Positions 37,273 through 54,410 of a DNA stretch of 64,000 bases are shown in pieces. The stretch is from an uncultured Opitutia bacterium (GTDB lineage: Bacteria > Verrucomicrobiota > Verrucomicrobiia > Opitutales > UBA953). The position numbers were made by a program, and so were the translations under genes. The stretch covers positions 62,001 to 126,000 of the forward strand of contig CAMFKE010000001.1 in the NCBI GenBank assembly GCA_945957395.1. The letters are read 5' to 3'. The first letter of the stretch is position 1, and every line of letters starts with the position of its first letter. The notes under the pieces were generated by a model that saw only the letters and a program-made list of their open reading frames with translations, was not told where the DNA came from and made no database searches.

Positions 37273-38430
37273 TTACCTCAACTCGGAAGGTTTCACGGTG
37301 CGGAAGACGATGCGCTCGTAGTCTCCGGCTTCATACGCGATGGCGATGGTGCCGTCGGGTAGCACGGCGAGGTGGCTGTAGGCGGAGGGGCCGGGTTCGA
37401 TGACGAGCGACCTGGTCCAGGTTTGGCCTTCGTCCTCGGAGCCGCGCAGGGTGAGGTTGCGGCGCTCTTCGCGGGAGGCGGGGTTGGAGAAGAGGAGGAG
37501 GCCGGGGTGGCCGTCGGCGGGCAGGGTGTGGCGCACGAGCGAGCCCATGCAGCGGGGTTCGGGCAGCGCGGGGTCCCAGGTGGTCTCGCCCCAGGTCTCG
37601 CCGGCGTCCTTGCTGATGGCGACGGCGCGGGCGCGCTTGGCGGAGCCGTGGTTGCGCATGTTCAGGAGGAGGTCGCCGTTGGCGAGTTCGACGATCTCGC
37701 ACTCGTTGGTGTGGCGGGCGGCGTAGGTCTTGGAGCGGGTCCAGGTTTTGCCGGAGTCGTCGGAGTAGAGGGCGTGGGCGTAGTAGACGGGGCGGGTGGT
37801 GGGCTTGCCGTCCTTGTCGGGGGCGCCCTGCTCGAACTCGCTGTGGTTGGCGGGTGTGATGTAGCGGCCCTTGTGCGGCTCGCGCTGTTTCACGAAACCG
37901 GCGCCGGGGCCCGGGGCGATCCAGGCCCAGCCCGGGAGTTTCGCCTGTTCGGTGATGTTGCGGGGGGCGGACCAGGTGAGGCCGTCGTCGTCGCTGTGGA
38001 CGATGTAGACCTTGCGCGAGTCGTCGCCGAAGCCGGGTTTGAGGCGGGATTCCCACAGTTTGTTCCAGACCAGGAGCACGGAGATGCGCCCGGTTTGGCG
38101 GTCCACGACGGGGCAGGCGTTGCCGAGGGTGAACTCGTCGAGGTCGGCGACCACCCGGATTTCGCTCCAGGTCCTGCCGCCGTCTTCGGAGCGGCGCACC
38201 ACCTGGTCGATGTCGCCGTTGTCGTGCGGGCTGTTCTTTCGCCTTTCGGCGAAGAGCAGCAGGGCGCCCTTGGGCGTGACGGCGAGCGTGGGGATGCGGT
38301 AGGTGTGTTCCGGCGCCCGGCGCGCGCCCACATAGGCGTCGAGCTTGATGGGGGCGTCCTCCCGGCTTTCCGGGGCGGTGCAGCCGGCGAGCGGCAGCAG
38401 GGCGAGGACGGCGAGCGGGAGGAGCTTCAT
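37273..38430 (-). CDS. Sialidase (GH33-type), predicted lipoprotein
   Basis: 385 residues. [17 protein letters not shown] is a lipoprotein signal, so the enzyme should be held on the cell envelope. GH33 marks: YRIPTLAV (F/YRIP Arg), the Asp-rich segment [10 protein letters not shown], five Asp-boxes ([40 protein letters not shown]), [11 protein letters not shown] (Glu of the Tyr/Glu pair), and [11 protein letters not shown] with YEAGDY at the end. It cleaves terminal sialic acids from host or mucin glycans. It is third and most divergent of three tandem copies, 15 bases downstream of the second. Confidence 0.92.
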
Positions 38431-38445
38431 CGGGCGTGAGGCGGC

Positions 38446-39621
38446 TTACTTGGTCCGGCCGGGCTCCTGCCGGAGCTCGGAGGGCTTCACGGTGCGGAAG
38501 GCGATGCGCTTGTAGTCGTCGGTCTCGTAGGCGACGGCGATGGTGCCGTCCTTGAGCACGGCGAGGTGGCTGTAGGCGGCCTGGGCGGGCTGGATGACGA
38601 GGGACTTCGACCAGGTTTTGCCGTCGTCGGCGGAGCTGCGCAGGGTGAGGTTTTCGCGTTTGCCGGTGGAGGCGGGGTTGCAGAAGAGGATGAGGCCCGG
38701 GTTGCCGCCGGAGGGCCAGGAGTGGCGCATGATGGAGCCCATGCACTGGGACTCGGGCAGCGACATGTCCCAGGTGGTCTCGCCCCAGGAGTCGCCGGCG
38801 TCCTTGCTGACGGCGACGGCGCGGCGGCGTTTGCCTGAGCCGTGGTTGCGCATGTTCAGCATGAGGTCGCCGTTGGAGAGTTCGACGATCTCGCACTCGT
38901 TGGTGTGCTTGGCGGCGAAGGATTTGGAGGATTTCCAAGTCTTGCCGGAGTCGTCGGAGTAGAGGGCGTGGGCGTAGTAGACCGTGCGGGTGGTGGGCTT
39001 GCCGTCCTTGTCGGGTTTGCCCTCCTCGAACTCGCTGTGGTTGACGGGGATGATGTAGCGGCCGGCGTTGGGGGGGAGCTTCTTGACGAAGCCGGCGCCG
39101 GGGCCGGTGGCCATCCAGGCCCAGTTGGGCTGCTTCACCTGCTCGGAGATGTTCTGCGGCTTGCTCCAGGTCTTTCCGTCGTTGTCGCTGTAGGTGGTGT
39201 AGACGAGGCGGGTGTCGTCGCCGTATCCGGGCTTGGTGGAGTACTCGTGGACGCGGTTCCAGACGGCCACGACGGTGATGCGGCCGGTCGTGGGGTCGAC
39301 GATGGGGCAGGCGTTGCCGATGGTGTACTTGTCGATGTCGAGCATCACCTTTTCGGCCGACCAGGTCTTGCCGCCGTTTTCGGAGCGCTTCACGACCGTG
39401 TCGATGTCGCCGGAGTCGCCCCAGCCGTTTTTGCGCAGCTCGGCGAAGGCGAGGATGGTGCCCTTCTTGGTGACGCACATCGAGGGGATGCGGTAGGTGT
39501 GCGTCGGGCTCTTGCCGGTGCCGACGAAGAGGTCGGCGTCGCGGGCGGGTTCGGCCGCCTGAGTCGCGGCGAAGGCGGCGAGGGGGAGAAGGCCGAGCAG
39601 GGCGAGGGAGAGGTGCTTCAT
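38446..39621 (-). CDS. Sialidase (GH33-type), secreted
   Basis: 391 residues from the ATG at 39621. Signal peptide to about LAAFAATQA. GH33 motifs: YRIPSMCVTKKG, GDSGDIDTVVKR, Asp-boxes [32 protein letters not shown] and [31 protein letters not shown]. No lipobox, so it is periplasmic or released. Bases 39032-39535 are identical to 40219-40722 in the upstream sialidase, so this block was copied recently. It lies 8 bases after that gene and 15 before the next, in a single transcript. Confidence 0.92.
   Translation of the reverse strand: MKHLSLALLGLLPLAAFAATQAAEPARDADLFVGTGKSPTHTYRIPSMCVTKKGTILAFAELRKNGWGDSGDIDTVVKRSENGGKTWSAEKVMLDIDKYTIGNACPIVDPTTGRITVVAVWNRVHEYSTKPGYGDDTRLVYTTYSDNDGKTWSKPQNISEQVKQPNWAWMATGPGAGFVKKLPPNAGRYIIPVNHSEFEEGKPDKDGKPTTRTVYYAHALYSDDSGKTWKSSKSFAAKHTNECEIVELSNGDLMLNMRNHGSGKRRRAVAVSKDAGDSWGETTWDMSLPESQCMGSIMRHSWPSGGNPGLILFCNPASTGKRENLTLRSSADDGKTWSKSLVIQPAQAAYSHLAVLKDGTIAVAYETDDYKRIAFRTVKPSELRQEPGRTK
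39032..39535 (-). repeat. 504-bp exact copy shared by sialidase genes 2 and 3 (copy 1)
   Basis: Identical base for base to 40219-40722, with a constant offset of 1187 and mismatches immediately at both ends. It covers the N-terminal catalytic half, from the mature N-terminus to PVNHSE, in both proteins. Flanking sequence is clearly diverged. Confidence 0.95.
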
Positions 39622-39629
39622 GGCGTGGC

Positions 39630-40811
39630 TTACTTGGAGGTTTCGCCGGATTGGGGCTTGAGCTCGGAAGGCTTGATGACGCTGAAGACGATGCGCTTGC
39701 AGTTGTCGGCTTCGTAGAGGTGGGCGATGTCGCCGTTGGGCAGCACGGCGAGGTGGCTGTAGGCGGCCTTGCCGGGTTCGATGAGCTTCTGGACGGGCCA
39801 GGTTTTGCCGTCGTCGAAGGAGCCGCGCAGGATCATGTTTTCGCGGCCCTTCTTGGTGGCGGGGTTGGAGAAGAGGAGCATGCCGGGGTTGCCGTTGAGG
39901 GGCCAGGAGTGGCGGATGATGGAGCCCTGGCAGACGGGCTCGGGGAGCTGCTTGTCGTAGGTGGTCTCGCCCCAGGTTTCGCCGCCGTCCTTGGAGATGG
40001 CGACGGCGCGGTCGCGACGGCCGGTGCCCTGGTTGCGCATGTTGAGCATGATGTCGCCGTTGGTCAGTTCGACGGCTTCGCACTCGTTGGTGCCCCTGTC
40101 GGCGAAGGACTTGGAGGCTTTCCAGGTCTTGCCGGAGTCGTCGGAGTAAAGGATGTGCGCGTAGTAGGTCTGGCCCATCTTCACCTTGCCGTCCTTGTCG
40201 GGTTTGCCCGGCTCAAGTTCGCTGTGGTTGACGGGGATGATGTAGCGGCCGGCGTTGGGGGGGAGCTTCTTGACGAAGCCGGCGCCGGGGCCGGTGGCCA
40301 TCCAGGCCCAGTTGGGCTGCTTCACCTGCTCGGAGATGTTCTGCGGCTTGCTCCAGGTCTTTCCGTCGTTGTCGCTGTAGGTGGTGTAGACGAGGCGGGT
40401 GTCGTCGCCGTATCCGGGCTTGGTGGAGTACTCGTGGACGCGGTTCCAGACGGCCACGACGGTGATGCGGCCGGTCGTGGGGTCGACGATGGGGCAGGCG
40501 TTGCCGATGGTGTACTTGTCGATGTCGAGCATCACCTTTTCGGCCGACCAGGTCTTGCCGCCGTTTTCGGAGCGCTTCACGACCGTGTCGATGTCGCCGG
40601 AGTCGCCCCAGCCGTTTTTGCGCAGCTCGGCGAAGGCGAGGATGGTGCCCTTCTTGGTGACGCACATCGAGGGGATGCGGTAGGTGTGCGTCGGGCTCTT
40701 GCCGGTGCCGACGAAGAGGTCGATGGGCTCCTGCGCTTTCGGAGCGGCGAAGGCGACGAGGGGCAGCAGGGCGGCCAGTGCGAAAAGACGGGAGGGGCGG
40801 GAGAGTTTCAT
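39630..40811 (-). CDS. Sialidase (GH33-type), secreted, first of three in tandem
   Basis: 393 residues from the ATG at 40811. Signal peptide MKLSRPSRLFALAALLPLVA with cleavage near AFAAPKAQ. GH33 motifs: YRIPSMCVTKKG, GDSGDIDTVVKR, Asp-boxes [32 protein letters not shown], and a degenerate [31 protein letters not shown]. It is first in the sialidase-kinase-esterase-epimerase series, so the operon promoter should lie in 40812-41221, which it shares divergently with the first PEP-CTERM gene. Its C-terminal half differs from the second copy, unlike the identical N-terminal half. Confidence 0.92.
   Translation of the reverse strand: MKLSRPSRLFALAALLPLVAFAAPKAQEPIDLFVGTGKSPTHTYRIPSMCVTKKGTILAFAELRKNGWGDSGDIDTVVKRSENGGKTWSAEKVMLDIDKYTIGNACPIVDPTTGRITVVAVWNRVHEYSTKPGYGDDTRLVYTTYSDNDGKTWSKPQNISEQVKQPNWAWMATGPGAGFVKKLPPNAGRYIIPVNHSELEPGKPDKDGKVKMGQTYYAHILYSDDSGKTWKASKSFADRGTNECEAVELTNGDIMLNMRNQGTGRRDRAVAISKDGGETWGETTYDKQLPEPVCQGSIIRHSWPLNGNPGMLLFSNPATKKGRENMILRGSFDDGKTWPVQKLIEPGKAAYSHLAVLPNGDIAHLYEADNCKRIVFSVIKPSELKPQSGETSK
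40219..40722 (-). repeat. 504-bp exact copy shared by sialidase genes 2 and 3 (copy 2)
   Basis: Partner of 39032-39535. A perfect match over this length, with diverged ends on both sides, points to gene conversion rather than simple duplication. Confidence 0.95.
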
Positions 40812-41053
40812 GGCGACGAGGGGGTTCGGGGTAGTGGGGCCGGTGGCGGGTGCCGCAGCGGGCCGGAGCCTGTTTGCCTTGGTGGCATGCGGCGCCAACG
40901 GCCTCTTGGGGGGCTCATGGTGTGGCGGTGGGACGGTGGAGCAATGAGACCCGGTGGGCAATCGACATTTCCACCTCTACGGGGGGGGCTCGGGCGCCGG
41001 CGCGGAGTGGTGGTGTGGTAGCGCCCTCGCGCGCGCGATGTTTTAAAAAGGGG

Positions 41054-41180
41054 TTCATCGCCTTATGCCTCACATGGGCCGGTAGGTTCATGGAGGGCTC
41101 GAATTGCCCGGGGTTTGTTCCTTTGTTTTGTGTGTAAGCAATGATTTCGGTTTGGAGGGGTGGGCGAATTTAATACCAGG
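41054..41180 (+). promoter_or_regulatory. Conserved upstream block of PEP-CTERM gene A
   Basis: Same order of blocks as upstream of genes B and D: TTCATCGCC..ATGCCTC, a GGGTTTGTTCCTTTGTTT stretch, GTTTGGAGGGG (41150-41160), and GAATTTAATACCAGG (41166-41180), about 40 bases before the ATG. This suggests a common promoter and leader. The rest of the gap 40812-41053 holds no gene and no clear site. The sialidase operon promoter should be there on the minus strand. Confidence 0.5.
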
Positions 41181-41221
41181 GATGCAGGCCCGTTTTAACC
41201 TCGGGCCGTCTCGTACTACCC

Positions 41222-42544
41222 ATGAAAAAAACTCTTCCCACGCTTACCCTTTCGTTGGCCGTTCTAATGGCCGCCACCACTTCTTTCGCCGCGACCTATG
41301 TGGGGCCCGGTGACGGAACCGCGAACACCGGCTACATCGGAGCGCAAACCCAGATGAAACCCGGAGATGCTGGCGTGGAGGGCGACGCGCTGCTGACCTT
41401 CAATGTGACCAGCGGGTACTTCGGAAACGGAAATGATCAGACGATCCTCTTTAGTAATGCGAATTTCCAGATCAACGAGCTGACCATCAACAACGGGTAC
41501 AGCAATAACCAGACCTGGTTCACCGGGACGGCGCACGGGTCCGGCAACATCACGGTGACCGGCGCCTTGGGGCAGGATTTCGTGTTTACCGGCAACATGC
41601 AGAATTACTCGGGCAATATCAGCATTTCCTCCTCCGGCGGGAGCAGTCCGGCTTTGGGCTCCTCCAATAATAGCGTGCTGCAGTTCGGGGGCACCGACTC
41701 CGGCGGCACCGTCGCGCAGGGGACGGTGACCACCGACGGTACCGGTCGCTGGATCAACAATGTGTCGGGTTCCGGCGATTTGTCCGTCAACAACCTGGTC
41801 TTCAACTACGGCACGGGCTCCGGTTATGACTATGTGAAGGTCACCAATGACATCTCGGTGCGCAAGGGGCTTCACTTCCAAGGGGATGCGCATGTCCTCG
41901 CCAGTGGAACCATCGCCGGGGACGGTTGGGTGAACAAGGTCGGCGCCGGCAGCCTGACGCTTACGGGGGCCAACAGCTACACGGGAGGCACCATCGTGGC
42001 GCTGGGCGAGCTGATCGCCGCGCACGCTTCGGCTCTGGGCACCGGTACGGTGGCGGTGAACGGCGGCATTCTGTCCACTTCGGTGGCCAATGTGAACACG
42101 GGCGCTTTCTCCCTCGCCGGGGGCACCCTGGTGATCAACGGCGCTTCCGCCGGCACCATCACCCTTTCGCCCGGCCAGGACTTCAACTTCACCGCCGGCC
42201 TGTGGCAGATCGATCTGGCCTCGGGTCTCGACCAGATCATCGGCTCCGGCGCCGGCTCCGACTTCACCATCTCCGGCGGCGTGATCGACCTGGGCGGCGG
42301 CGCCATCGATTACACGCAGACCTACGACCTCATCGCGGGCTTCGAGAACATCAACATCAGCGGGGTGGGCATCACCGGGTACGACACCGCCAACTGGCAG
42401 GCGTCCATCAACAACAACGGCGAACTGAGCTTCACCGCCGTGCCCGAGCCGGCCACCTACGGCCTGCTCGGCGCCGGAGCGCTGGCCGCCGCCTCGATGG
42501 TGCGTCGTCGCCGTCGCAAGGCCGCCGCGAAGGCCGCCGAGTAA
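41222..42544 (+). CDS. PEP-CTERM surface protein A with autotransporter-type beta-strand repeat
   Basis: 440 residues. Signal peptide MKKTLPTLTLSLAVLMAATT to about SFAA. The N-terminal 220 residues are unique within the array, Gly/Asn/Ser/Thr-rich and probably beta-helical. A repeat of autotransporter-associated type follows, GAGSLTLTGANSYTGGTIV, then the shared C-terminal module (residues about 300-440). It ends with VPEPATYGLLGAGALAAASM and an Arg/Lys-rich tail, the PEP-CTERM sorting signal recognised by an exosortase. It is therefore exported and probably surface-held. No exosortase is in the window. The start ATG is at 41222. Confidence 0.88.
   Translation: MKKTLPTLTLSLAVLMAATTSFAATYVGPGDGTANTGYIGAQTQMKPGDAGVEGDALLTFNVTSGYFGNGNDQTILFSNANFQINELTINNGYSNNQTWFTGTAHGSGNITVTGALGQDFVFTGNMQNYSGNISISSSGGSSPALGSSNNSVLQFGGTDSGGTVAQGTVTTDGTGRWINNVSGSGDLSVNNLVFNYGTGSGYDYVKVTNDISVRKGLHFQGDAHVLASGTIAGDGWVNKVGAGSLTLTGANSYTGGTIVALGELIAAHASALGTGTVAVNGGILSTSVANVNTGAFSLAGGTLVINGASAGTITLSPGQDFNFTAGLWQIDLASGLDQIIGSGAGSDFTISGGVIDLGGGAIDYTQTYDLIAGFENINISGVGITGYDTANWQASINNNGELSFTAVPEPATYGLLGAGALAAASMVRRRRRKAAAKAAE
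42167..42471 (+). repeat. 305-bp exact copy shared by PEP-CTERM genes A and B (copy 1)
   Basis: Identical to 44482-44786 (offset 2315). It encodes the shared C-terminal module up to the start of the transmembrane part of the PEP-CTERM signal. Confidence 0.92.
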
Positions 42545-42571
42545 TCGGAAAACGCCTGCGCTCGCGCATCT

Positions 42572-42608
42572 AGCACCCCGGGGCCGCCGCGCCTCGGGGT
42601 GCTTTTTT
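42572..42608 (+). terminator. Terminator after PEP-CTERM gene A
   Basis: AGCACCCCG (42572-42580) pairs with CGGGGTGCT (42595-42603) and is followed by a run of T to 42608. The same hairpin recurs after genes C and D. Confidence 0.85.
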
Positions 42609-42612
42609 GTGT

Positions 42613-42735
42613 CACCGATTCAGGTCTCACGCCAAGCCGCCAAGCACGCCAAGGCTTTTGCCATGGATTACGCAGATTCCACGGGTTGATTCTCCAATGC
42701 CCGCTTATCTGTGCTTATCCGGGTCCATCTGTGGA
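42613..42735 (+). repeat. Dispersed intergenic repeat, copy 1
   Basis: Composite repeat in fixed order: TTCAGGTCTCACGCCAAGCC, CGCCAAGGCTTTTGCCA, GGATTACGCAGATTCCACG, then CTGTGCTTATCC..GTCCATCTGTGG. Related copies are at 46831-46951, 47069-47190, 49335-49462 and inverted near 53011. No protein is likely. With the following shared block it fills the gap 42545-43071. Confidence 0.8.
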
Positions 42736-42783
42736 AAAAAACGAAATCGGGCATGCGGCTGCCGTCGCTGCTGGCTCGGAGGT

Positions 42784-42930
42784 GAAGTCGGGTGGTTGTT
42801 GAGTGTTTGTTCTGCAAGGGCTTGATGCCGCGTTGGTTGCGGTGGGTTTTTTGGGCCGAAGGGTATGGGGTGCTGTGTCCGGCGTTTACCTTAGGCTCAT
42901 CGCCTGATGCCTCCTAGGCCTGCGAGTTCA
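42784..42930 (+). repeat. 147-bp duplicated upstream block (copy before gene B)
   Basis: Matches 47238-47384 with about two mismatches (offset 4454), so the gene B and gene D units were duplicated together with their upstream DNA. Confidence 0.85.
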
Positions 42931-43022
42931 TGGAGAGGTGCTCGCGATAGGGGGTTGTTTCCTTGTTTGGTCTGCTAGGAATGATTTTCGTTTGGAGGGG
43001 GGGTAGGAATTTAATAACAGGA
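42896..43022 (+). promoter_or_regulatory. Conserved upstream block of PEP-CTERM gene B
   Basis: CTCATCGCCTGATGCCTC, then GGGGGTTGTTTCCTTGTTT, GTTTGGAGGGG (42990-43000), GGAATTTAATAACAGGAGGG (43007-43024). Same order as before genes A and D. It lies about 50 bases before the ATG. Confidence 0.5.
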
Positions 43023-43071
43023 GGGCACGCCCCGGTGATTCAGCTCGGGCAACCCCAACCCCATTAACCCC

Positions 43072-44865
43072 ATGAAAACCCACCCTTCCAAAGCACTTCT
43101 TGCGGTGGCCGTCAGTCTGTCGGTCTTCGCCTCCTCTCATGCCGTCGTCATTTCCAAGGATTCTGCGGGCACCGACCTTGCGGCCGGTTCCTCGTGGGCC
43201 GGGGGCAATGCGCCGACATCTTCCGATGTGGCGACCTGGACGGGAAGCTCGTTGGGCGGTTCGCTCACGATGGACTCCGATTTGTCCTGGGGCGGCATCG
43301 ATATCCAGGGGGCCACGGCCACCGTGGTCATTTCGGGCACCGGTACGCTGACGCTGGGCGCCTCCGGCATTAATGTCGCCGCCGCCGGGCAGGATCTGAC
43401 GCTGGGCAATTCCATTGTCGTTGGCGCATCGCAGACCTGGCATGTGGAGGAGGGGCGCAAGCTGCTTATCAACACCACGGGCAGCACGCTTACTTTCGGT
43501 GAAGGCACCACCACCACGCTGACCGGCTCCGGCACAGTCGAGCTTGGGAACAACCGGGAGCTCGCAGGCAGCGGCGATCTGGTCATCGATGGCGCCACGC
43601 TTGTGAACAATCTGCAGGGCGGCACCCAGTCCCGCACCGGGAATACGACCCTGAACTCGGGTATCATAATGCTGCAGAGCAATGTGGACATATTCGGCAC
43701 CGGGCAGCTCAACCTCAACGGCGGCGCCATCGGCTCCGGTAACAGTTCCTCGCGCACCATCGCCAACGCGGTGACAATCGGCGGCGATATCCGCATCGGC
43801 GGCGACGGACTGAGCTCCGGCGGCATGACCTTCTCGGGTACGGTCGATCTCATGGGGGGCGTTCGCACCATCGAAACCAATGTCACGACCTTCTTCACCG
43901 GCGTGATTTCCAACGGCGGAATCACCAAGACCGGCTCCGGCGTGCTGCGACTGGCGGGTGACAACACTTTCACGGGCGCCACGACCGTCCTTCAGGGGGC
44001 GCTGGCCATCGGCAACAACGCGCTCGCGCACAGCAGCTCGGTAACTCTGGCTGCCGGCACGACGTTGTATATCGGTGCCAACGGCACGACGACCATCAAC
44101 AACCTCTCCGGCGATGCCGGCTCCGAGATCCATACCGCCTATAACATCGACACGACCGGCGCTCGCACGCTGGTGGTGAATCAGACGGTGGACGGCGTGT
44201 TCGCCGGCACCATCAAGCAGGGTAACTCCGGTCGCACGCTCAGCCTGGTGAAGGACGGCTCGGGCACCCTCACGCTCAGCGGCACCAACACCTACTCCGG
44301 CGGCACGACCATCAACAACGGCACGCTCGTGGCCGCCGCCGCGGCGGCGCTGGGCACCGGCGCCGTGCAGGCCAATGGAGGCACGCTGGCCACCTCGGTG
44401 GCGAATGTGAACACCGGCGCGTTCAACCTCGCCGGGGGCACGCTGGTGCTCAACGGCGCCGGCGCAGGCACCATCACCCTGTCGCCCGGCCAGGACTTCA
44501 ACTTCACCGCCGGCCTGTGGCAGATCGATCTGGCCTCGGGTCTCGACCAGATCATCGGCTCCGGCGCCGGCTCCGACTTCACCATCTCCGGCGGCGTGAT
44601 CGACCTGGGCGGCGGCGCCATCGATTACACGCAGACCTACGACCTCATCGCGGGCTTCGAGAACATCAACATCAGCGGGGTGGGCATCACCGGGTACGAC
44701 ACCGCCAACTGGCAGGCGTCCATCAACAACAACGGCGAACTGAGCTTCACCGCCGTGCCCGAGCCGGCCACCTACGGCCTGCTCGGTGCAGGGGCTCTGG
44801 CCGCCGCCGCGATGGTGCGTCGACGCCGTCGCAAGGCGTCCGACGCGTCCCCTGTGACCGAGTAG
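43072..44865 (+). CDS. PEP-CTERM surface protein B with beta-strand repeats
   Basis: 597 residues. Signal peptide MKTHPSKALLAVAVSLSVFA to about SSHA. The N-terminal module, shared with genes D and E, begins with VVISKDSAGTDLAAGSSWAG and runs through DVATWTGSSLGG and GGIDIQGATATVVISG. The middle has repeat units such as TKTGSGVLRLAGDNTFTGAT and VKDGSGTLTLSGTNTYSGGT, the autotransporter-associated strand pattern that predicts a right-handed beta-helix. The C-terminal module is that of A. The sorting signal is VPEPATYGLLGAGALAAAAM plus RRRRRK. Probably exosortase-processed and surface-displayed. Confidence 0.88.
   Translation: MKTHPSKALLAVAVSLSVFASSHAVVISKDSAGTDLAAGSSWAGGNAPTSSDVATWTGSSLGGSLTMDSDLSWGGIDIQGATATVVISGTGTLTLGASGINVAAAGQDLTLGNSIVVGASQTWHVEEGRKLLINTTGSTLTFGEGTTTTLTGSGTVELGNNRELAGSGDLVIDGATLVNNLQGGTQSRTGNTTLNSGIIMLQSNVDIFGTGQLNLNGGAIGSGNSSSRTIANAVTIGGDIRIGGDGLSSGGMTFSGTVDLMGGVRTIETNVTTFFTGVISNGGITKTGSGVLRLAGDNTFTGATTVLQGALAIGNNALAHSSSVTLAAGTTLYIGANGTTTINNLSGDAGSEIHTAYNIDTTGARTLVVNQTVDGVFAGTIKQGNSGRTLSLVKDGSGTLTLSGTNTYSGGTTINNGTLVAAAAAALGTGAVQANGGTLATSVANVNTGAFNLAGGTLVLNGAGAGTITLSPGQDFNFTAGLWQIDLASGLDQIIGSGAGSDFTISGGVIDLGGGAIDYTQTYDLIAGFENINISGVGITGYDTANWQASINNNGELSFTAVPEPATYGLLGAGALAAAAMVRRRRRKASDASPVTE
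44482..44786 (+). repeat. 305-bp exact copy shared by PEP-CTERM genes A and B (copy 2)
   Basis: Partner of 42167-42471. Confidence 0.92.
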
Positions 44866-44891
44866 TCGGTACCGGGGTTCCCGGGTTTTCA

Positions 44892-44925
44892 AAAACACCC
44901 CGAAGCTCCCGCTTCGGGGTGTTTT
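44892..44925 (+). terminator. Terminator after PEP-CTERM gene B
   Basis: A 15-bp perfect stem (44892-44906 with 44911-44925) with a TCCC loop and a GTTTT end. Its sequence differs from the terminators of genes A, C and D. Confidence 0.88.
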
Positions 44926-45119
44926 CGCTTGGCCTGTTCGTGGTGCTGCGCGTTTTTTTCTGTCTTCGTATTCCGCTTGAAATCAGTGGATAAGCAATGG
45001 ATGTGATGGGCGGTGCTTGGTTTTTGCCAGTGATTTGGCGTAGGCTGAAATAAAATAATATCAGTGATTGCTTGCCAAATTTCGTCCGGGCTTTTTTCAG
45101 GGTGTCCCTCGTTTTTCCC

Positions 45120-46763
45120 ATGCAAACACCCCAGCTCAAATCCCTGCTTGCTGCGGCCGCGGTTCTCACGGTCGTCGCCCCTTCACACGCCGCCACATGG
45201 ACCGGTTCCACGGACGGCTCGTGGGCGAATGGCGCCAACTGGACCGGCGTCGCCCCGGACAATCTCACCGCTCAGACCATTGATTTCGGCACGGGGTCGG
45301 TGGCTCAGGCCATTCAGGAGCTCAATGGTTCGTATCTGCTTACGAGCATCACCAACGGCTCCACCTCCGCCGTGACCATCAACGGCGGCACGGGCTCCAA
45401 CACTCTGACTTTCGGCACCACCGGCGTCACGACGCTCAACGCCTCGGGCGCCGACCTCACACTTGGTCCCGGCTATACCATCGCCTTCGGCTCCGGCGTG
45501 ACCGCGACGACCTTTACCGCCGCCTCCGGGAAGGTCCTTGCGGTGGATGCCAATTTAAACCTGACCAACGCAGGCGGAACCGGCGTCGGGCTCACGATCA
45601 GCGGCAGCGGCACCATCAACATCGGCGGCGCCATTTCCGGCTCGGGAAACATCAACATCGCCTCCAACGGCTCGGTCAATTTCACCGGGGACAACAGCCA
45701 GAGCGGCTATTCGGGTAACATCAGTGCTGCCAACACCACCGGAGGCAGCTTCACCGTGGCTACCGGCGCCAAACTGGTGACGACGGGCAATTTCACCGCC
45801 AGCCGAAACAAGACCTACACCATCGACGGCCTGCTGTCGGTCGGCACCTTCGTCATGTCCACCAACGCCTCCACCACCCTGGGCGGCGCCGGTACGGTGA
45901 ATTTCAATCAGTTCACCAACCAGAACAGCAGCAACACGACCATCTCGGTCGCCAACTTCAACATCGGCGCCGGTGGCATCGTTCGCACCAACGGCACCAT
46001 CACGCTGGGGGCCACCACCGTGGGCTCGTTGGCCAATTGGTCCTCGTCCGCCGCATTGGGCCTCACCAACGGTGTCACCACCAAGTTCGATACCACGGGT
46101 GGCGATATCACCCTGACCGGATCGATTGGTAACAATGCCTCGGGTGTCTTGGAAAAGCGGGGCAGCGGCACGCTGACGCTCAGCGGCACCAACACCTACA
46201 CCGGCGGCACGACCATCAACAACGGCACGCTCGTGGCCGCGGCCGCGGCGGCGCTGGGCACCGGCGCCGTGCAGGCCAACGGCGGCACGCTGGCCACCTC
46301 GGTGGCGAATGTGAACACCGGCGCGTTCAACCTCGCCGGGGGCACGCTGGTGCTCAACGGCGCCGGCGCCGGCACCATCACCCTGTCGCCCGGCCAGGAC
46401 TTCAACTTCACCGCCGGCATCTGGCAGATCGACCTGGCTTCCGGTCTCGACCAGATCATCGGCTCCGGCGCCGGTTCCGACTTCGTCATTTCCGGCGGCC
46501 TGATCGACCTGGGCGGCGGCGCCATCGACTACACGCAGACCTACAGCCTCATCGCGGGCTTCGAGACGGTCAACATCAGCGGGGTGGGCGTCACCGGCTA
46601 CGACACCGCCAACTGGCAGGCGTCCATCAACAACAACGGCGAACTGAGCTTCACCGCCGTGCCCGAGCCGGCCACCTACGGCCTGCTCGGCGCCGGAGCG
46701 CTGGCCGCCGCCTCGATGGTGCGTCGTCGCCGTCGCAAGGCCGCCGCGAAGGCCGCCGAGTAA
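45120..46763 (+). CDS. PEP-CTERM surface protein C with beta-strand repeat
   Basis: 547 residues from the ATG at 45120; a TTG at 45072 would add 16 residues with no signal-peptide logic. Signal peptide MQTPQLKSLLAAAAVLTVVA to SHA. The mature start ATWTGSTDGSWANGANWTG is a common opening in PEP-CTERM beta-helix proteins. The middle is Gly/Thr/Asn-rich with strands such as TISGSGTINIGGAISGSGNI; one repeat LEKRGSGTLTLSGTNTYTGG precedes the shared C-terminal module. The sorting signal VPEPATYGLLGAGALAAASM and Arg tail is present. It lacks the upstream promoter block of A, B and D. Its 3' part is identical to that of D over 376 bp. Confidence 0.87.
   Translation: MQTPQLKSLLAAAAVLTVVAPSHAATWTGSTDGSWANGANWTGVAPDNLTAQTIDFGTGSVAQAIQELNGSYLLTSITNGSTSAVTINGGTGSNTLTFGTTGVTTLNASGADLTLGPGYTIAFGSGVTATTFTAASGKVLAVDANLNLTNAGGTGVGLTISGSGTINIGGAISGSGNINIASNGSVNFTGDNSQSGYSGNISAANTTGGSFTVATGAKLVTTGNFTASRNKTYTIDGLLSVGTFVMSTNASTTLGGAGTVNFNQFTNQNSSNTTISVANFNIGAGGIVRTNGTITLGATTVGSLANWSSSAALGLTNGVTTKFDTTGGDITLTGSIGNNASGVLEKRGSGTLTLSGTNTYTGGTTINNGTLVAAAAAALGTGAVQANGGTLATSVANVNTGAFNLAGGTLVLNGAGAGTITLSPGQDFNFTAGIWQIDLASGLDQIIGSGAGSDFVISGGLIDLGGGAIDYTQTYSLIAGFETVNISGVGVTGYDTANWQASINNNGELSFTAVPEPATYGLLGAGALAAASMVRRRRRKAAAKAAE
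46169..46544 (+). repeat. 376-bp exact copy shared by PEP-CTERM genes C and D (copy 1)
   Basis: Identical to 48673-49048 (offset 2504). High similarity continues to the stop, terminator and intergenic repeat after it. Confidence 0.92.
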
Positions 46764-46790
46764 TCGGAAAACGCCTGCGCTCGCGCATCA

Positions 46791-46827
46791 AGCACCCCGG
46801 GGCCGCCGCGCTCCGGGGTGCTTTTTT
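46791..46827 (+). terminator. Terminator after PEP-CTERM gene C
   Basis: AGCACCCCGG pairs with CCGGGGTGCT (arms from 46791 and to 46822) and is followed by a T run. Same element as after gene A. Confidence 0.85.
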
Positions 46828-46830
46828 ATG

Positions 46831-46951
46831 CCACCGATTCAGGACACACGCCAAGCCGCCAGGCACGCCAAGGCTTTTGCCACGGATTACACAGATTCCA
46901 CGGATTGATTCTCCAATGCCCGCTTATCTGTGCTTATCCGTGTCCATTTGA
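46831..46951 (+). repeat. Dispersed intergenic repeat, copy 2
   Basis: Same composite order as copy 1, with CACGGATTACACAGATTCC and CTTATCCGTGTCCATTTG. It is followed at 46970-47068 by another low-complexity repeat type, CTCTGTGTTCTCCGCGGTCT and CCTCCGTGCCTCGGTGGTGG. Confidence 0.8.
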
Positions 46952-47068
46952 GGAAGTCCGACCCCGGTCCGCCTCTGTGTTCTCCGCGGTCTCTGCGTTG
47001 AAATCCTTCGAAATCGGTCCTCCCGCATCCCTCTCCGCGTCCTCCGTGCCTCGGTGGTGGAACCCCTT

Positions 47069-47190
47069 CCGATTCAGGTCTCACGCCAAGCCGCCAGGCA
47101 CGCCAAGGCTTTTGCCACGGATTTCCCAGATTCCACGGATTGATTCTCCAATGCCCGCTTATCTGTGCTTATCCGTGTCCATCTGTGGAA
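47069..47190 (+). repeat. Dispersed intergenic repeat, copy 3
   Basis: A second copy within the same gap (46764-47524). The gap holds no gene: two repeat copies, the duplicated upstream block and the promoter block of gene D fill it. Confidence 0.8.
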
Positions 47191-47237
47191 AAATACGAAC
47201 TCGGGTATGCGGCTTCCGTCGCTGCAGGTACGGTGGC

Positions 47238-47384
47238 GAAGTCGGGTGGTTGTTGAGTGTTTGTTCTGCAAGGGCTTGATGCCGCGTTGGTTGCGGTGGG
47301 TTTTTTGGGCCGAAGGGTATGGGGTGCTGTGTCCGGCGTTTACCTTAGGCTCATCGCCTGATGCCTCCTGGGCCGGCGAGTTCA
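47238..47384 (+). repeat. 147-bp duplicated upstream block (copy before gene D)
   Basis: Partner of 42784-42930, about two mismatches. Confidence 0.85.
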
Positions 47385-47475
47385 GTCGGGTGGTTTGCTG
47401 ACAGGGGGTTGTTTCCTTGTTTGCTTTGTTAGGTGGGATTTCCGTTTGGAGGGGCGGGGGAATTTCATAACAGGA
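47350..47475 (+). promoter_or_regulatory. Conserved upstream block of PEP-CTERM gene D
   Basis: CTCATCGCCTGATGCCTC, GGGGGTTGTTTCCTTGTTT, GTTTGGAGGGG (47444-47454), GGAATTTCATAACAGGAGGG (47459-47478). Same order as before genes A and B. Confidence 0.5.
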
Positions 47476-47524
47476 GGGCGGGCCCGAACTTTTCGGCTCG
47501 GGCGCCCTGAACCCGTTGAAAACT

Positions 47525-49267
47525 ATGAAAAACCACCCCTCCAAAGCACTTCTCGCGGTGGCCGTCTGCTTGTCGGTCTTCACCACTTCCCACGCCGTAG
47601 TCATTTCCAAGGATCCTGCCGGCACCGACCTTACGGTTGGCGCTTCGTGGGCGGGGGGCAATGCGCCGACATCCGCCGATGTGGCGACCTGGACGGGCAG
47701 TTCGCTGGGAGGCGGTCTCACGATGGGCTCGAATCAGAGCTGGGGAGGCATCGATATTCAGGGGGCCACGGCCGCCATCACCATCTCCGGCTCCGGCGTG
47801 CTGACGCTGGGCACGGGCGGCATCAATGTGGCCGCCGCCGGGCAGGATCTGACGCTCTCGAACAATGTCGTCTTCGCCGGCGCCACTTCGAATATCACCG
47901 TGGGAACGGGCAGGACCGTGAAGCTCAACGGAGTGAAGACTTTCAACGCCGGCACCGTCACGACGCTTAACGGCGCGGGTACCGTGGAAATCGGCGGCTC
48001 CTCAAACTCCACCGGGGCGGGTGATGTGGTGCTCAATTCGGGCACGCTCTTCATGAACATGCAGGGCGGCACCCATGACCGTACCGGAAACACGATTATC
48101 AATGGCGGCATCGTCAAATCGACGACCTCCTTGAACTTCTTCGGCACGGGCACGGTTTACTTCAACGGCGGCGCCATCGGTTCCGGCAACGGCACCCGAC
48201 GCACCTTTAACAACTCCATCGTCGTCGGCGGCGACTTCGCCATCGGCGGATCCGGCTTGGGCACCGGGGCCATTCAGTTCTCCGGCAATCTTGATTTCAC
48301 GGGAGGAAGCCGGGTGATCACGGTGAACTCGACCTTGGAGCTCACGGGCAGCGCCGGCAACGGCACCATGGTCAAACAGGGCACCGGCAGTCTGGTGCTG
48401 AAGTCCGGCGACTTCTCCACCATGGGCCTGCATGTGGCGCAGGGTGCGGTTCACCTTGGCGGCAATGGCACGAACACCAACCCGAACACCACCTACATTG
48501 GCAGCCTTTCGGGCGCTGCGGGGACGACTTTGTCGACCCAGTATAATTTGGCATCCAGCACGGATTCGTTGCGCACCCTGTCGGTGAATCAGACCGTCGA
48601 CGGCGTGTTCGCCGGCACCATCACGCAAGGCAGCACCAGCCGCGCTCTTTCGCTGGTCAAGGAAGGTTCCGCCACGCTGACGCTCAGCGGCACCAACACC
48701 TACACCGGCGGCACGACCATCAACAACGGCACGCTCGTGGCCGCGGCCGCGGCGGCGCTGGGCACCGGCGCCGTGCAGGCCAACGGCGGCACGCTGGCCA
48801 CCTCGGTGGCGAATGTGAACACCGGCGCGTTCAACCTCGCCGGGGGCACGCTGGTGCTCAACGGCGCCGGCGCCGGCACCATCACCCTGTCGCCCGGCCA
48901 GGACTTCAACTTCACCGCCGGCATCTGGCAGATCGACCTGGCTTCCGGTCTCGACCAGATCATCGGCTCCGGCGCCGGTTCCGACTTCGTCATTTCCGGC
49001 GGCCTGATCGACCTGGGCGGCGGCGCCATCGACTACACGCAGACCTACGACCTCATCGCGGGCTTCGAGAACATCGACATCAGCGGGGTGGGCATCACCG
49101 GCTACGACACCGCCAACTGGCAGGCGTCCATCAACAATAACGGCGAACTGAGCTTCATCGCCGTGCCCGAGCCCTCCACCTACGGCCTGCTCGGCGCCGG
49201 AGCGCTGGCCGCCGCCTCGATGGTGCGTCGTCGCCGTCGCAAGGCCGCCGCGAAGGCCGCCGAGTAA
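47525..49267 (+). CDS. PEP-CTERM surface protein D with beta-strand repeat
   Basis: 580 residues from the ATG at 47525, matching the gene B start (MKNHPSKALLAVAVCLSVFT); a TTG 9 bases earlier is less likely. The N-terminal module VVISKDPAGTDLTVGASWAG, DVATWTGSSLGG and GGIDIQGATAAITISG is shared with B and E. The middle repeats include VKQGTGSLVLKSGDFSTMG and VKEGSATLTLSGTNTYTGGT. The C-terminal module is near-identical to that of C. The sorting signal is VPEPSTYGLLGAGALAAASM with the Arg/Lys tail. It has the same promoter block and upstream duplication as B, so B and D are recent paralogues with different 3' donors. Confidence 0.88.
   Translation: MKNHPSKALLAVAVCLSVFTTSHAVVISKDPAGTDLTVGASWAGGNAPTSADVATWTGSSLGGGLTMGSNQSWGGIDIQGATAAITISGSGVLTLGTGGINVAAAGQDLTLSNNVVFAGATSNITVGTGRTVKLNGVKTFNAGTVTTLNGAGTVEIGGSSNSTGAGDVVLNSGTLFMNMQGGTHDRTGNTIINGGIVKSTTSLNFFGTGTVYFNGGAIGSGNGTRRTFNNSIVVGGDFAIGGSGLGTGAIQFSGNLDFTGGSRVITVNSTLELTGSAGNGTMVKQGTGSLVLKSGDFSTMGLHVAQGAVHLGGNGTNTNPNTTYIGSLSGAAGTTLSTQYNLASSTDSLRTLSVNQTVDGVFAGTITQGSTSRALSLVKEGSATLTLSGTNTYTGGTTINNGTLVAAAAAALGTGAVQANGGTLATSVANVNTGAFNLAGGTLVLNGAGAGTITLSPGQDFNFTAGIWQIDLASGLDQIIGSGAGSDFVISGGLIDLGGGAIDYTQTYDLIAGFENIDISGVGITGYDTANWQASINNNGELSFIAVPEPSTYGLLGAGALAAASMVRRRRRKAAAKAAE
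48673..49048 (+). repeat. 376-bp exact copy shared by PEP-CTERM genes C and D (copy 2)
   Basis: Partner of 46169-46544. Confidence 0.92.
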
Positions 49268-49294: not shown

Positions 49295-49332
49295 AGCACC
49301 CCGGGGCCGCCGCGCCTCGGGGGGCTTTTTTT
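49295..49332 (+). terminator. Terminator after PEP-CTERM gene D
   Basis: Same element as after genes A and C, but one stem base is changed (GGGGGGCT instead of GGGGTGCT), which gives an A-G mismatch, followed by seven T. Confidence 0.75.
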
Positions 49333-49334
49333 AT

Positions 49335-49462
49335 GCCACGCATTCAGGCCTCACGCCAAGCCGCCAAGCACGCCAATGCTTTGGCCATGGATTACACCGA
49401 TTCCCACGGATTGATTCATCCTCCCGTGCCGCATCCGTGTTTATCCGTGTCCATCCGTGGCT
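49335..49462 (+). repeat. Dispersed intergenic repeat, copy 4
   Basis: CATTCAGGCCTCACGCCAAG, CGCCAATGCTTTGGCCATGG, GATTCCCACGGATTG, GTTTATCCGTGTCCATCCGT. More diverged than copies 1-3. The rest of the gap (49463-49977) has no recognisable gene. It is more AT-rich before the next start and carries ATCATAAG twice (near 49793 and 49823). Confidence 0.75.
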
Positions 49463-49977
49463 AAAACCCGAAGTCGGTCTTCTCGCACTCTTCCTCCGAG
49501 ACCTCCGTGGTGAGAACTTTTGGCCTTTCCATTGTCTGATTATCCTTCGGGGGGGTGATTCGCCCCCGGTCGCTTGCCAGAAGATGTCTTTCCGGGTGCT
49601 TCACCTGTTGTTCCTCGGCGTTACAGCAGGTAAGGCCCCGGGCCGGATACCCCCGGACGCACCGGTCGCGATATCGTGTACGCGCAGCGAAAGTCTTGAT
49701 TTCATCTGCGCTGGCGGCGCATTTTGGCGTCTCTTGGTCAGTTCTAGGTGCTTGATTGTCAGGGGGTTATCGGGCCCGGTTTGGTGATCCATCATAAGCC
49801 TTGGTTTTCTTCCTTAAAATTCATCATAAGGTCCCTGGAATGCCAGTTTTGTTCAATCTTTGCTGTGTTTTGAGTGGTTAAATCATGTGTCCGGAGTGAG
49901 TGGTGGTAGGAAAAAAAACCACACCTAGCTTGCCACGACCATCCCCGGTCGTACCCGGGTGGCACTTCGCAGAACCT

Positions 49978-52819: not shown

Positions 52820-53230
52820 ACCGGGTTTCACCACGGATGCACGGAGGAGGGGTGGGGGAGAATCGATTTGGAAGAATTCAACGCAGAGGACGCAGCGAAC
52901 GCAGAGGGGCGGGAGAACCGGGGGCGGTTTTTTGCCACAGATGGACACGGATATGCACAGATTCGGCGGGGTATTCGGGCGAACCAATCCGTGAGAATCA
53001 GAGGAATCCCTGGCAAAAGTCTTGGCGTGCTTGGCGGCTTGGCGTGAGACCTGAATCGGAGGGGGGCACCACGGAGGGGAAGAGGACACCGAGGCGGCAT
53101 GAGGGAGGACCGGTTTCGGGGTTCTATCCACAGATGGACACCGATGGGCACAGATTGTGGCGGGGGGCGGCTGCTTTGAAATCCCCTCTGTGCGAATCTG
53201 CGGAAATCTGTGGAAAAGGCTTTGGCGTGA
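52820..53230. repeat. Cluster of dispersed intergenic repeats, including inverted copies
   Basis: Fills the gap between the PEP-CTERM array and the regulator gene. Contains CACCACGGATGCACGGAGG, AACGCAGAGGACGCAGCGAA, CACAGATGGACACGGAT, and at 53011-53060 the reverse complement of the CGCCAAG..GCC unit of copies 1-4 (GGCGTGCTTGGCGGCTTGGC). Near 53120 and 53190 there are further CACAGATGGACACCGATGGG and GAAATCTGTGGAAAAGG units. No gene seen. Confidence 0.75.
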
Positions 53231-53315
53231 GGGGCCAGTCGCCGGACTCCGAGAACCGTATTTCTCCGAGGAGGCCCGCTCGACAAACGCCGGTCGGTCG
53301 CGCAAGTTGGCCGGC

Positions 53316-54410
53316 ATGCCTTCGCCCATCCGCCGCCACTACCTTCCCGACGAAGTGGAGCGCCGTCTTTTGCTGGCTTTGCGCCGCGGCGATTATGGCG
53401 AGACGCTGCCCGGTGAGCGCACGCTCGCCGAGGTGTTCGGCGTGAGCCGGCCCACCTTGCGCCGCGCCATCGCCGCCCTGGTCACGCAGGGGTGGCTCAA
53501 GCCCGATCGCGGCCGGCCCACGCGCATCCTGCAGCGTCCCGACTCGGCGTACCCGGCGCGGGAGGTGAACCGCAGCATCGTGTTCCTTTCCTCGCACCCG
53601 CTGCATTCGCTTTCGGCCGGCACCATGCTCGCGTACGAGCTGCTGTCGGCGGAGCTCGCGGCCAACGGCTACTCGCTGCACTTCGTGGCCTGCGACGCGT
53701 TTCGCCAGAGGCACGGCGAGGAGTCGCTGCCGGCGCTGATGGAGCGGCATCCGGCCGGTGCTTACATCCTGCACCAGGCGCCGTATCCGGTGCAGCTGTG
53801 GTTCGCGCGCAGCGGCGTTCCGGCCTGCATCATGGGCTCGGCCGTCGAGGGTCTTTCGCTTCCGGCCGTGGACACGGATTTCGCGCCCGCCGCCAAGCAC
53901 GCCATGGGGGAATTGCGCCGGCTGGGGCACGCTCCCGAGCGCGTCCTGCTGCTGCTGCCCCAGTTGGACCTGGCCGGCAACCGCGCCATGCGCGAGGGCT
54001 TCCTGAACGCCGGCGGCAGTTCGCTGAATGTCCTGGCTCACCCGGTGGACGACGCGCACTGGCCGGCCTGGATCTCGCGCGAGATTCTGCCGCTCCTGGG
54101 CGAGTCCGGCGGGCCCACGGCGATCATCGCCGGATGGGCGCGCTTCACGGTGGCGCTGGTGTCGGCGCTGGGGCTGCGCTTCGCCCAGAGGGTGCCCGAG
54201 TCGGTGTCGGTGATGTGCCTGGCGGACGACCCCGTATTCGATATGCTCATACCGCGGGTGACGCGTTATCGCCGCAATTCCTCCAAGTATGTGGGGCAGC
54301 TGAGGCGCATCGTGGTCGACCTGGCGCATGGGCGCGCCCCGGTGCGCCCCCAGGTGCTGCTCATCCCCGAGCTCATGCCGGGCGGCACGACGGGCGCCCC
54401 GCGCGTCTGA
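53316..54410 (+). CDS. Transcriptional regulator, GntR-type winged helix with LacI-type sensor domain
   Basis: 364 residues from the ATG at 53316. Residues about 10-70 form a GntR-like DNA-binding domain: LPGERTLAEVFGVSRPTLRR, then AIAALVTQGWL and a basic GRPTR. The rest looks like a periplasmic-binding-fold sugar sensor of the LacI/GalR type: IVFLSSHPLHSL, LSAELAANGYSLHFVAC, HPAGAYILHQAP, GVPACIMGSAV, AIIAGWARFTVALVSALG and VSVMCLADDPVFDML. This build is used in Verrucomicrobiota and Bacteroidota for sugar-responsive control. Its place next to the surface-protein array and 12 kb from the sialidase operon makes those candidate targets. This is inference from position only. Confidence 0.8.
   Translation: MPSPIRRHYLPDEVERRLLLALRRGDYGETLPGERTLAEVFGVSRPTLRRAIAALVTQGWLKPDRGRPTRILQRPDSAYPAREVNRSIVFLSSHPLHSLSAGTMLAYELLSAELAANGYSLHFVACDAFRQRHGEESLPALMERHPAGAYILHQAPYPVQLWFARSGVPACIMGSAVEGLSLPAVDTDFAPAAKHAMGELRRLGHAPERVLLLLPQLDLAGNRAMREGFLNAGGSSLNVLAHPVDDAHWPAWISREILPLLGESGGPTAIIAGWARFTVALVSALGLRFAQRVPESVSVMCLADDPVFDMLIPRVTRYRRNSSKYVGQLRRIVVDLAHGRAPVRPQVLLIPELMPGGTTGAPRV

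Follow-up and report, generated by a model that had tools for sequence, protein, structure and literature searches.

Gene organisation of the locus

The window analysed here is a stretch of 64,000 nt (C1:62001-126000) from a 2.79-Mb genome in 14 contigs. It contains five consecutive genes, here called A-E, whose products are PATR/beta-strand-repeat proteins with PEP-CTERM ends, and a regulator gene follows directly after the array.

41222..42544, + strand: gene A, PATR repeat and PEP-CTERM protein, 440 aa
43072..44865, + strand: gene B, PATR and PEP-CTERM, 597 aa
45120..46763, + strand: gene C, PATR and PEP-CTERM, 547 aa, without the leader described below
47525..49267, + strand: gene D, PATR and PEP-CTERM, 580 aa
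49978..52713, + strand: gene E, PATR and PEP-CTERM, 911 aa, without the leader
53157..54410, + strand: regulator with GntR-type HTH and Peripla_BP_3, a candidate trans factor

The genome encodes one exosortase and has a PEP-CTERM/exosortase system, with 23 PEP-CTERM matches above the family cut-off and 25 listed. The gene upstream of A is divergent and sialidase-like. It belongs to a stretch (37273-40961) in which sialidase-like BNR genes divergent from A stand beside GDSL hydrolases, a GlcNAc 2-epimerase and a PfkB kinase, possibly a locus for sialoglycan use. The only near-identical named record was a contig labelled as an Aeromonadaceae MAG (CAMFKP010000115.1); as this contig carries the same D-E stretch in near-identical form, its label is probably a binning error.

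A shared leader upstream of A, B and D

Upstream of A, B and D we found a continuous homologous block of ~170 nt, which reaches the start codon from about -170. The similarity is far above chance (blastn E about 1e-15 for A against B and for A against D), with identities of 118/169 columns for A-B, 116/169 for A-D and 135/179 for B-D, that is 69-75% pairwise. A sequence-only model of 179 positions, R1, was built from the three leaders and recovered them as listed here; the list also gives two segments to which we assign putative roles.

41054..41221, + strand: leader of gene A, R1 match of 131 bits; the continuous block spans 41054-41224
42895..43071, + strand: leader of gene B, R1 match of 149 bits; the continuous block spans 42895-43074
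47349..47524, + strand: leader of gene D, R1 match of 152 bits; the continuous block spans 47349-47527
41055..41069 (A), 42897-42911 (B) and 47351-47365 (D), + strand: upstream box TCATCGCCTTATGCC, putative activator or operator site
41150..41180 (A), 42990-43021 (B) and 47444-47474 (D), + strand: core GTTTGGAGGGG-N5-GAATTTAATACCAGG, putative core promoter

The sequence-only reading had described an ordered set of separate motifs before these three genes. All four elements were indeed found, and in the same order: TCATCGCCT(T/G)ATGCC starting at 41055 (A), 42897 (B) and 47351 (D), TTGTTYCYTTGTTT at 41115, 42955 and 47409 (3 observed against 0.22 expected), GTTTGGAGGGG at 41150, 42990 and 47444, and GAATTT(A/C)ATA(A/C)CAGG at 41166, 43007 and 47460 (3 observed against 0.14 expected). 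The view of four distinct motifs did not hold, as the elements are parts of one homologous leader. The upstream box contains the dyad CATC-N4-GATG in B and D, and the copy in A has one mismatch.

Within the three-way alignment the leader has a hypervariable stretch at columns 38-57, where only 3/20 columns are invariant (shuffle p 0.0014). The clustering of invariant columns into runs was marginal (p 0.018), and the best-conserved window of 32 columns was non-significant (p 0.14). As the conserved blocks are only weakly or marginally more clustered than chance, the alignment at most suggests that the individual boxes may be functional.

Distribution of the leader

A search of the whole genome with R1 at a cut-off of E<=10 gave exactly three matches, the leaders of A, B and D. 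Hence no sigma factor gene, regulator gene or other surface-protein gene has the whole block. The exact core pattern likewise occurs three times in the genome, all inside the A-E array. A search of 371 further genomes from the order, with members of the family among them, did not find it. One pattern match, in G049, has a longer gap and disappears under a stricter pattern. Viral contigs gave no matches to the core pattern. Among the 78 other genomes of the family R1 gave 17 weak matches in 12, with a best E of 0.003 for one genome, and their number fits chance. For 15 of these 17 (all but L046 and L051; minus-strand matches kept in their original orientation) the match and the + strand frames after it were examined, and nothing there resembled a PEP-CTERM gene.

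Upstream regions were also fetched for 20 PEP-CTERM genes, two of which fall below the plain score cut-off or rest on weak matches; L060, L062 and L071 were excluded because of ambiguous start codons. The four-element set was absent upstream of C, E and the 17 further PEP-CTERM genes whose start could be assigned, which for C and E bears out what had been read from the sequence. When 22 upstream regions were compared pairwise (231 pairs), only A-B, A-D and B-D clearly exceeded the background. A scan for the four short sub-motifs in 19 upstream regions gave a few low shuffle values, for GAATTT... in L066 and L063 and for the T-rich stretch in L056 and L054, which is no more than 76 tests should yield; unlike in A, B and D, two never fell in one region. 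Absence before other PEP-CTERM genes had been named as a refuting outcome for the motif, and this outcome, with three copies in the genome, speaks against a regulon.

Two observations concern other PEP-CTERM genes of the genome. The sequence AAAAG(T/C)TACCA is common to the upstream regions of L053 and L059 (C2) and L058 (C8), and comes closest to being another short motif common to PEP-CTERM upstream regions in the genome. At C2:299118-299864 two Sigma70_r2 matches lie on opposite strands between the PEP-CTERM genes at C2:296343 and C2:301096.

Mosaic homology within the array

Genes A-D share a 3' module (41936..42544 in A, + strand) with 88-98% DNA identity; elsewhere in the family its protein identity is at most 41%, or up to 54% over short stretches. 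At the 5' end of the coding sequence, blastn between the gene units detected ~350-380 nt in common between B, D and E and ~80 nt between C and E. This E-type homology begins 2-5 bp ahead of the ATG; for B-E and C-E the distance is 3 bp (43069 in B, 45117 in C, 49975 in E), even though C and E have no leader. The leader homology ends near the start codon, beyond which the coding sequence of B and D is E-like. The 5' coding sequence of A is unrelated to its counterparts in B/D, C and E despite the match to the B/D leader, so that A-B and A-D homology runs through the leader, breaks, and resumes in the 3' module. It follows that leader, 5' coding part, passenger and 3' module differ in part in where they come from.

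The region upstream of B and D includes a stretch of ~95% identity and an exact tract of 132 bp (42784..42915 before B, 47238-47369 before D, + strand) that ends inside the leader; past its end, just inside the leader, B-D identity drops to 26/40. We read this tract as a probable trace of conversion or duplication. Identity between B and D at 4-fold sites is 45/61 (74%) against 135/179 (75%) in the leader, so descent alone suffices for the overall similarity, and shared ancestry together with recombination explains most of it. The three copies stand before neighbouring paralogs that duplication and recombination connect, and so are not independent evidence for a regulon. A homolog of the passenger of A (48% identity) was found in a Kiritimatiellae MAG (L031), and R1 had no match at that homolog.

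Taken as a whole, the stretch 41936-49267 combines near-identical 3' ends (88-98%) with passengers that vary and a tract that is exactly repeated between genes; the A-D region is a mosaic surface-protein array, probably undergoing gene conversion. Two further repeats were noted between the genes. A dispersed intergenic repeat of the CTTATCTGTGCTTATCCGTGTCCATCTGTGG type lies at 42637-42750, 46856-46955, 47091-47204 and 49361-49477, and beyond the window at C8:146507-153145 (many copies) and on C2, C4 and C12; it follows several PEP-CTERM genes and is present in many other places. Upstream of E, a 17-nt inverted repeat (49638-49654 and 49763-49779, 88% complementary, 108 nt apart) has dimensions resembling those of an invertible promoter.

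Terminators and promoter searches

Terminator-like hairpins follow four of the genes, all on the + strand and with strong stems.

42572..42603, + strand: after A
44892-44925, + strand: after B
46790-46823, + strand: after C
49299-49322, + strand: after D

With such stems after A-D, B and D would need a promoter of their own in the upstream region. The best location for it is probably the leader, and promoters elsewhere in the intergenic regions could also serve, for B for example before 42895.

A search for sigma-70 hexamers (-35/-10, spacing 16-18 nt) detected no pair on the + strand between 40900 and 50050 at the scan threshold, which leaves room for weaker sites. A sigma-54 consensus with up to 3 mismatches gave 55 matches in the window against 108 expected and is hence under-represented; in the leaders there was a single match with 3 mismatches in A (41104) and none in B or D. 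We thus agree with the sequence-only reading that the block has neither a consistent sigma-54 site nor, at this threshold, a standard -35/-10 pair. Its description as promoter-like is plausible given that terminators isolate the genes, and the part that called for a dedicated sigma factor is not supported, given the number of copies.

Possible roles of the leader

We consider it likely that the block represents a ~170-bp module of promoter/operator and 5' leader, copied with and recombined between tandem PEP-CTERM/PATR genes in one lineage. The leader would hold the promoter, with the upstream box serving as its activator or operator site, the hypervariable columns 38-57 as a tolerant spacer, and the core near GTTTGGAGGGG...GAATTTNATA together with the T-rich run. 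Conserved segments around a hypervariable stretch are the pattern expected of binding sites flanking a spacer, and the module is favoured by the negative outcome of the sigma-70, sigma-54, RNA fold, Rfam and inverted-repeat searches. The best reading is that the leader would co-regulate A, B and D, which may respond jointly, while C and E, having other upstream regions, would respond differently. As for the trans factor, a local regulator acting with an existing sigma factor would be likelier than a dedicated sigma factor. Further, we speculate that the array shuffles promoters, the 170-bp module, bounded near the TCATCGCC box and the start codon, being recombined among paralogs independently of coding sequence. 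It would be a promoter type other than standard sigma-70 or sigma-54, read by a local regulator, for example the neighbouring GntR-type protein. This extension is unlikely; if true, which surface proteins are expressed together would change in the course of evolution.

Other explanations were weighed against the promoter/operator module. Recognition of the block by an alternative sigma factor or activator dedicated to a regulon of its own was suggested by the sequence-only reading, and it fits the missing sigma-70 pair at the scan threshold, the 11 Sigma70_r2 matches and one RpoN in the genome, the GntR-type regulator adjoining the array (53157-54410), and the shared cis site before PEP-CTERM genes of Proteobacteria (PMC1569441). 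None of these sigma matches lies inside the window, which together with the lack of a whole leader elsewhere argues against a dedicated factor; the sole carriers are three nearby paralogs in one array, C, E and the 17 other PEP-CTERM genes do without the leader, and duplication accounts for most of the similarity. We hold this regulon to be rather improbable. If duplication were the whole story, the block would be homologous by descent only and have no function as a unit. The equal B-D identity of leader and 4-fold sites, the exact 132-bp tract and the confinement of all copies to one array are in line with this. Against it, the leader of A is ~70% identical to those of B and D though the adjoining coding sequence is unrelated, the hypervariable stretch sits between better-kept segments, and the terminators imply some promoter within each upstream region; we give such a pure residue a small chance.

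A structured leader RNA, which in the 5' UTR of the three genes would act like a riboswitch or as an attenuator, was another suggestion of the sequence-only reading, and a GCCC/GGGC stem can form in all three leaders just before the ATG. The folding z-scores were unremarkable for the 3' part (-1.30, 0.37, -1.54) as for the 5' part (-0.99, 1.10, -1.39), the best Rfam matches were far below the gathering score, and only 3/54 predicted pairs had double changes, in a predicted structure that extends into the coding sequence. No convincing covariation was seen in the leader alignment, the GCCC/GGGC hairpin included, and the suggestion fell with these results to a very low probability. An invertible promoter (inverton) was considered since group 138 invertons of Akkermansia are enriched near PEP-CTERM genes (PMC11892184). 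All three leaders have the same orientation, no inverted repeats flank them at a common position among the longest pairs listed, and no recombinase was found among the 30 window proteins scanned, so that an inverton here is highly improbable.

The promoter/operator module is in our reading a local control region, with no evidence for a genome-wide control system. With its three copies it is a compact system in which co-regulation, and the movement of control regions apart from coding sequence, can be tested.

Comparison with known systems

Tandem arrays of surface-protein paralogs with recombining upstream regions and 3' ends are a general kind of locus. The A-E array resembles them in its near-identical 3' ends, shared leaders and diverse passengers, but shows no silent cassettes or expression-site logic. 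Among the papers listed by literature searches, none appeared to describe the leader block.

PEP-CTERM surface proteins are numerous, and little of how they are regulated beyond Proteobacteria has been worked out. Haft et al. 2006 (PMC1569441) describe a bipartite cis site that contains a sigma-54 -24/-12 motif before 99/167 proteobacterial PEP-CTERM genes, the -24(GG)/-12(GC) element belonging to motif 2. The same text gives the cis-site motifs as common to Proteobacteria only and the remaining PEP-CTERM genes as having upstream regions outside this class, with further motifs to be found. Like this PrsK/PrsR site, the A/B/D leader stands before single-gene PEP-CTERM units and has two conserved segments with a spacer before the start codon; unlike it, the leader exists in three copies in one array and has no consistent sigma-54 motif. 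In Akkermansia, Cappable-seq located transcription starts with -35 and TATAAT-like elements (PMC4782308), and group 138 invertons lie near PEP-CTERM genes (PMC11892184). The leader is similar to these invertons in being a promoter-region module before surface genes of the PEP-CTERM/autotransporter type, and differs in that flanking inverted repeats were not found among the longest pairs listed. The A/B/D leader belongs with the Haft site and the invertons to one broad kind, control regions that several PEP-CTERM genes have in common, but it has the defining features of neither.
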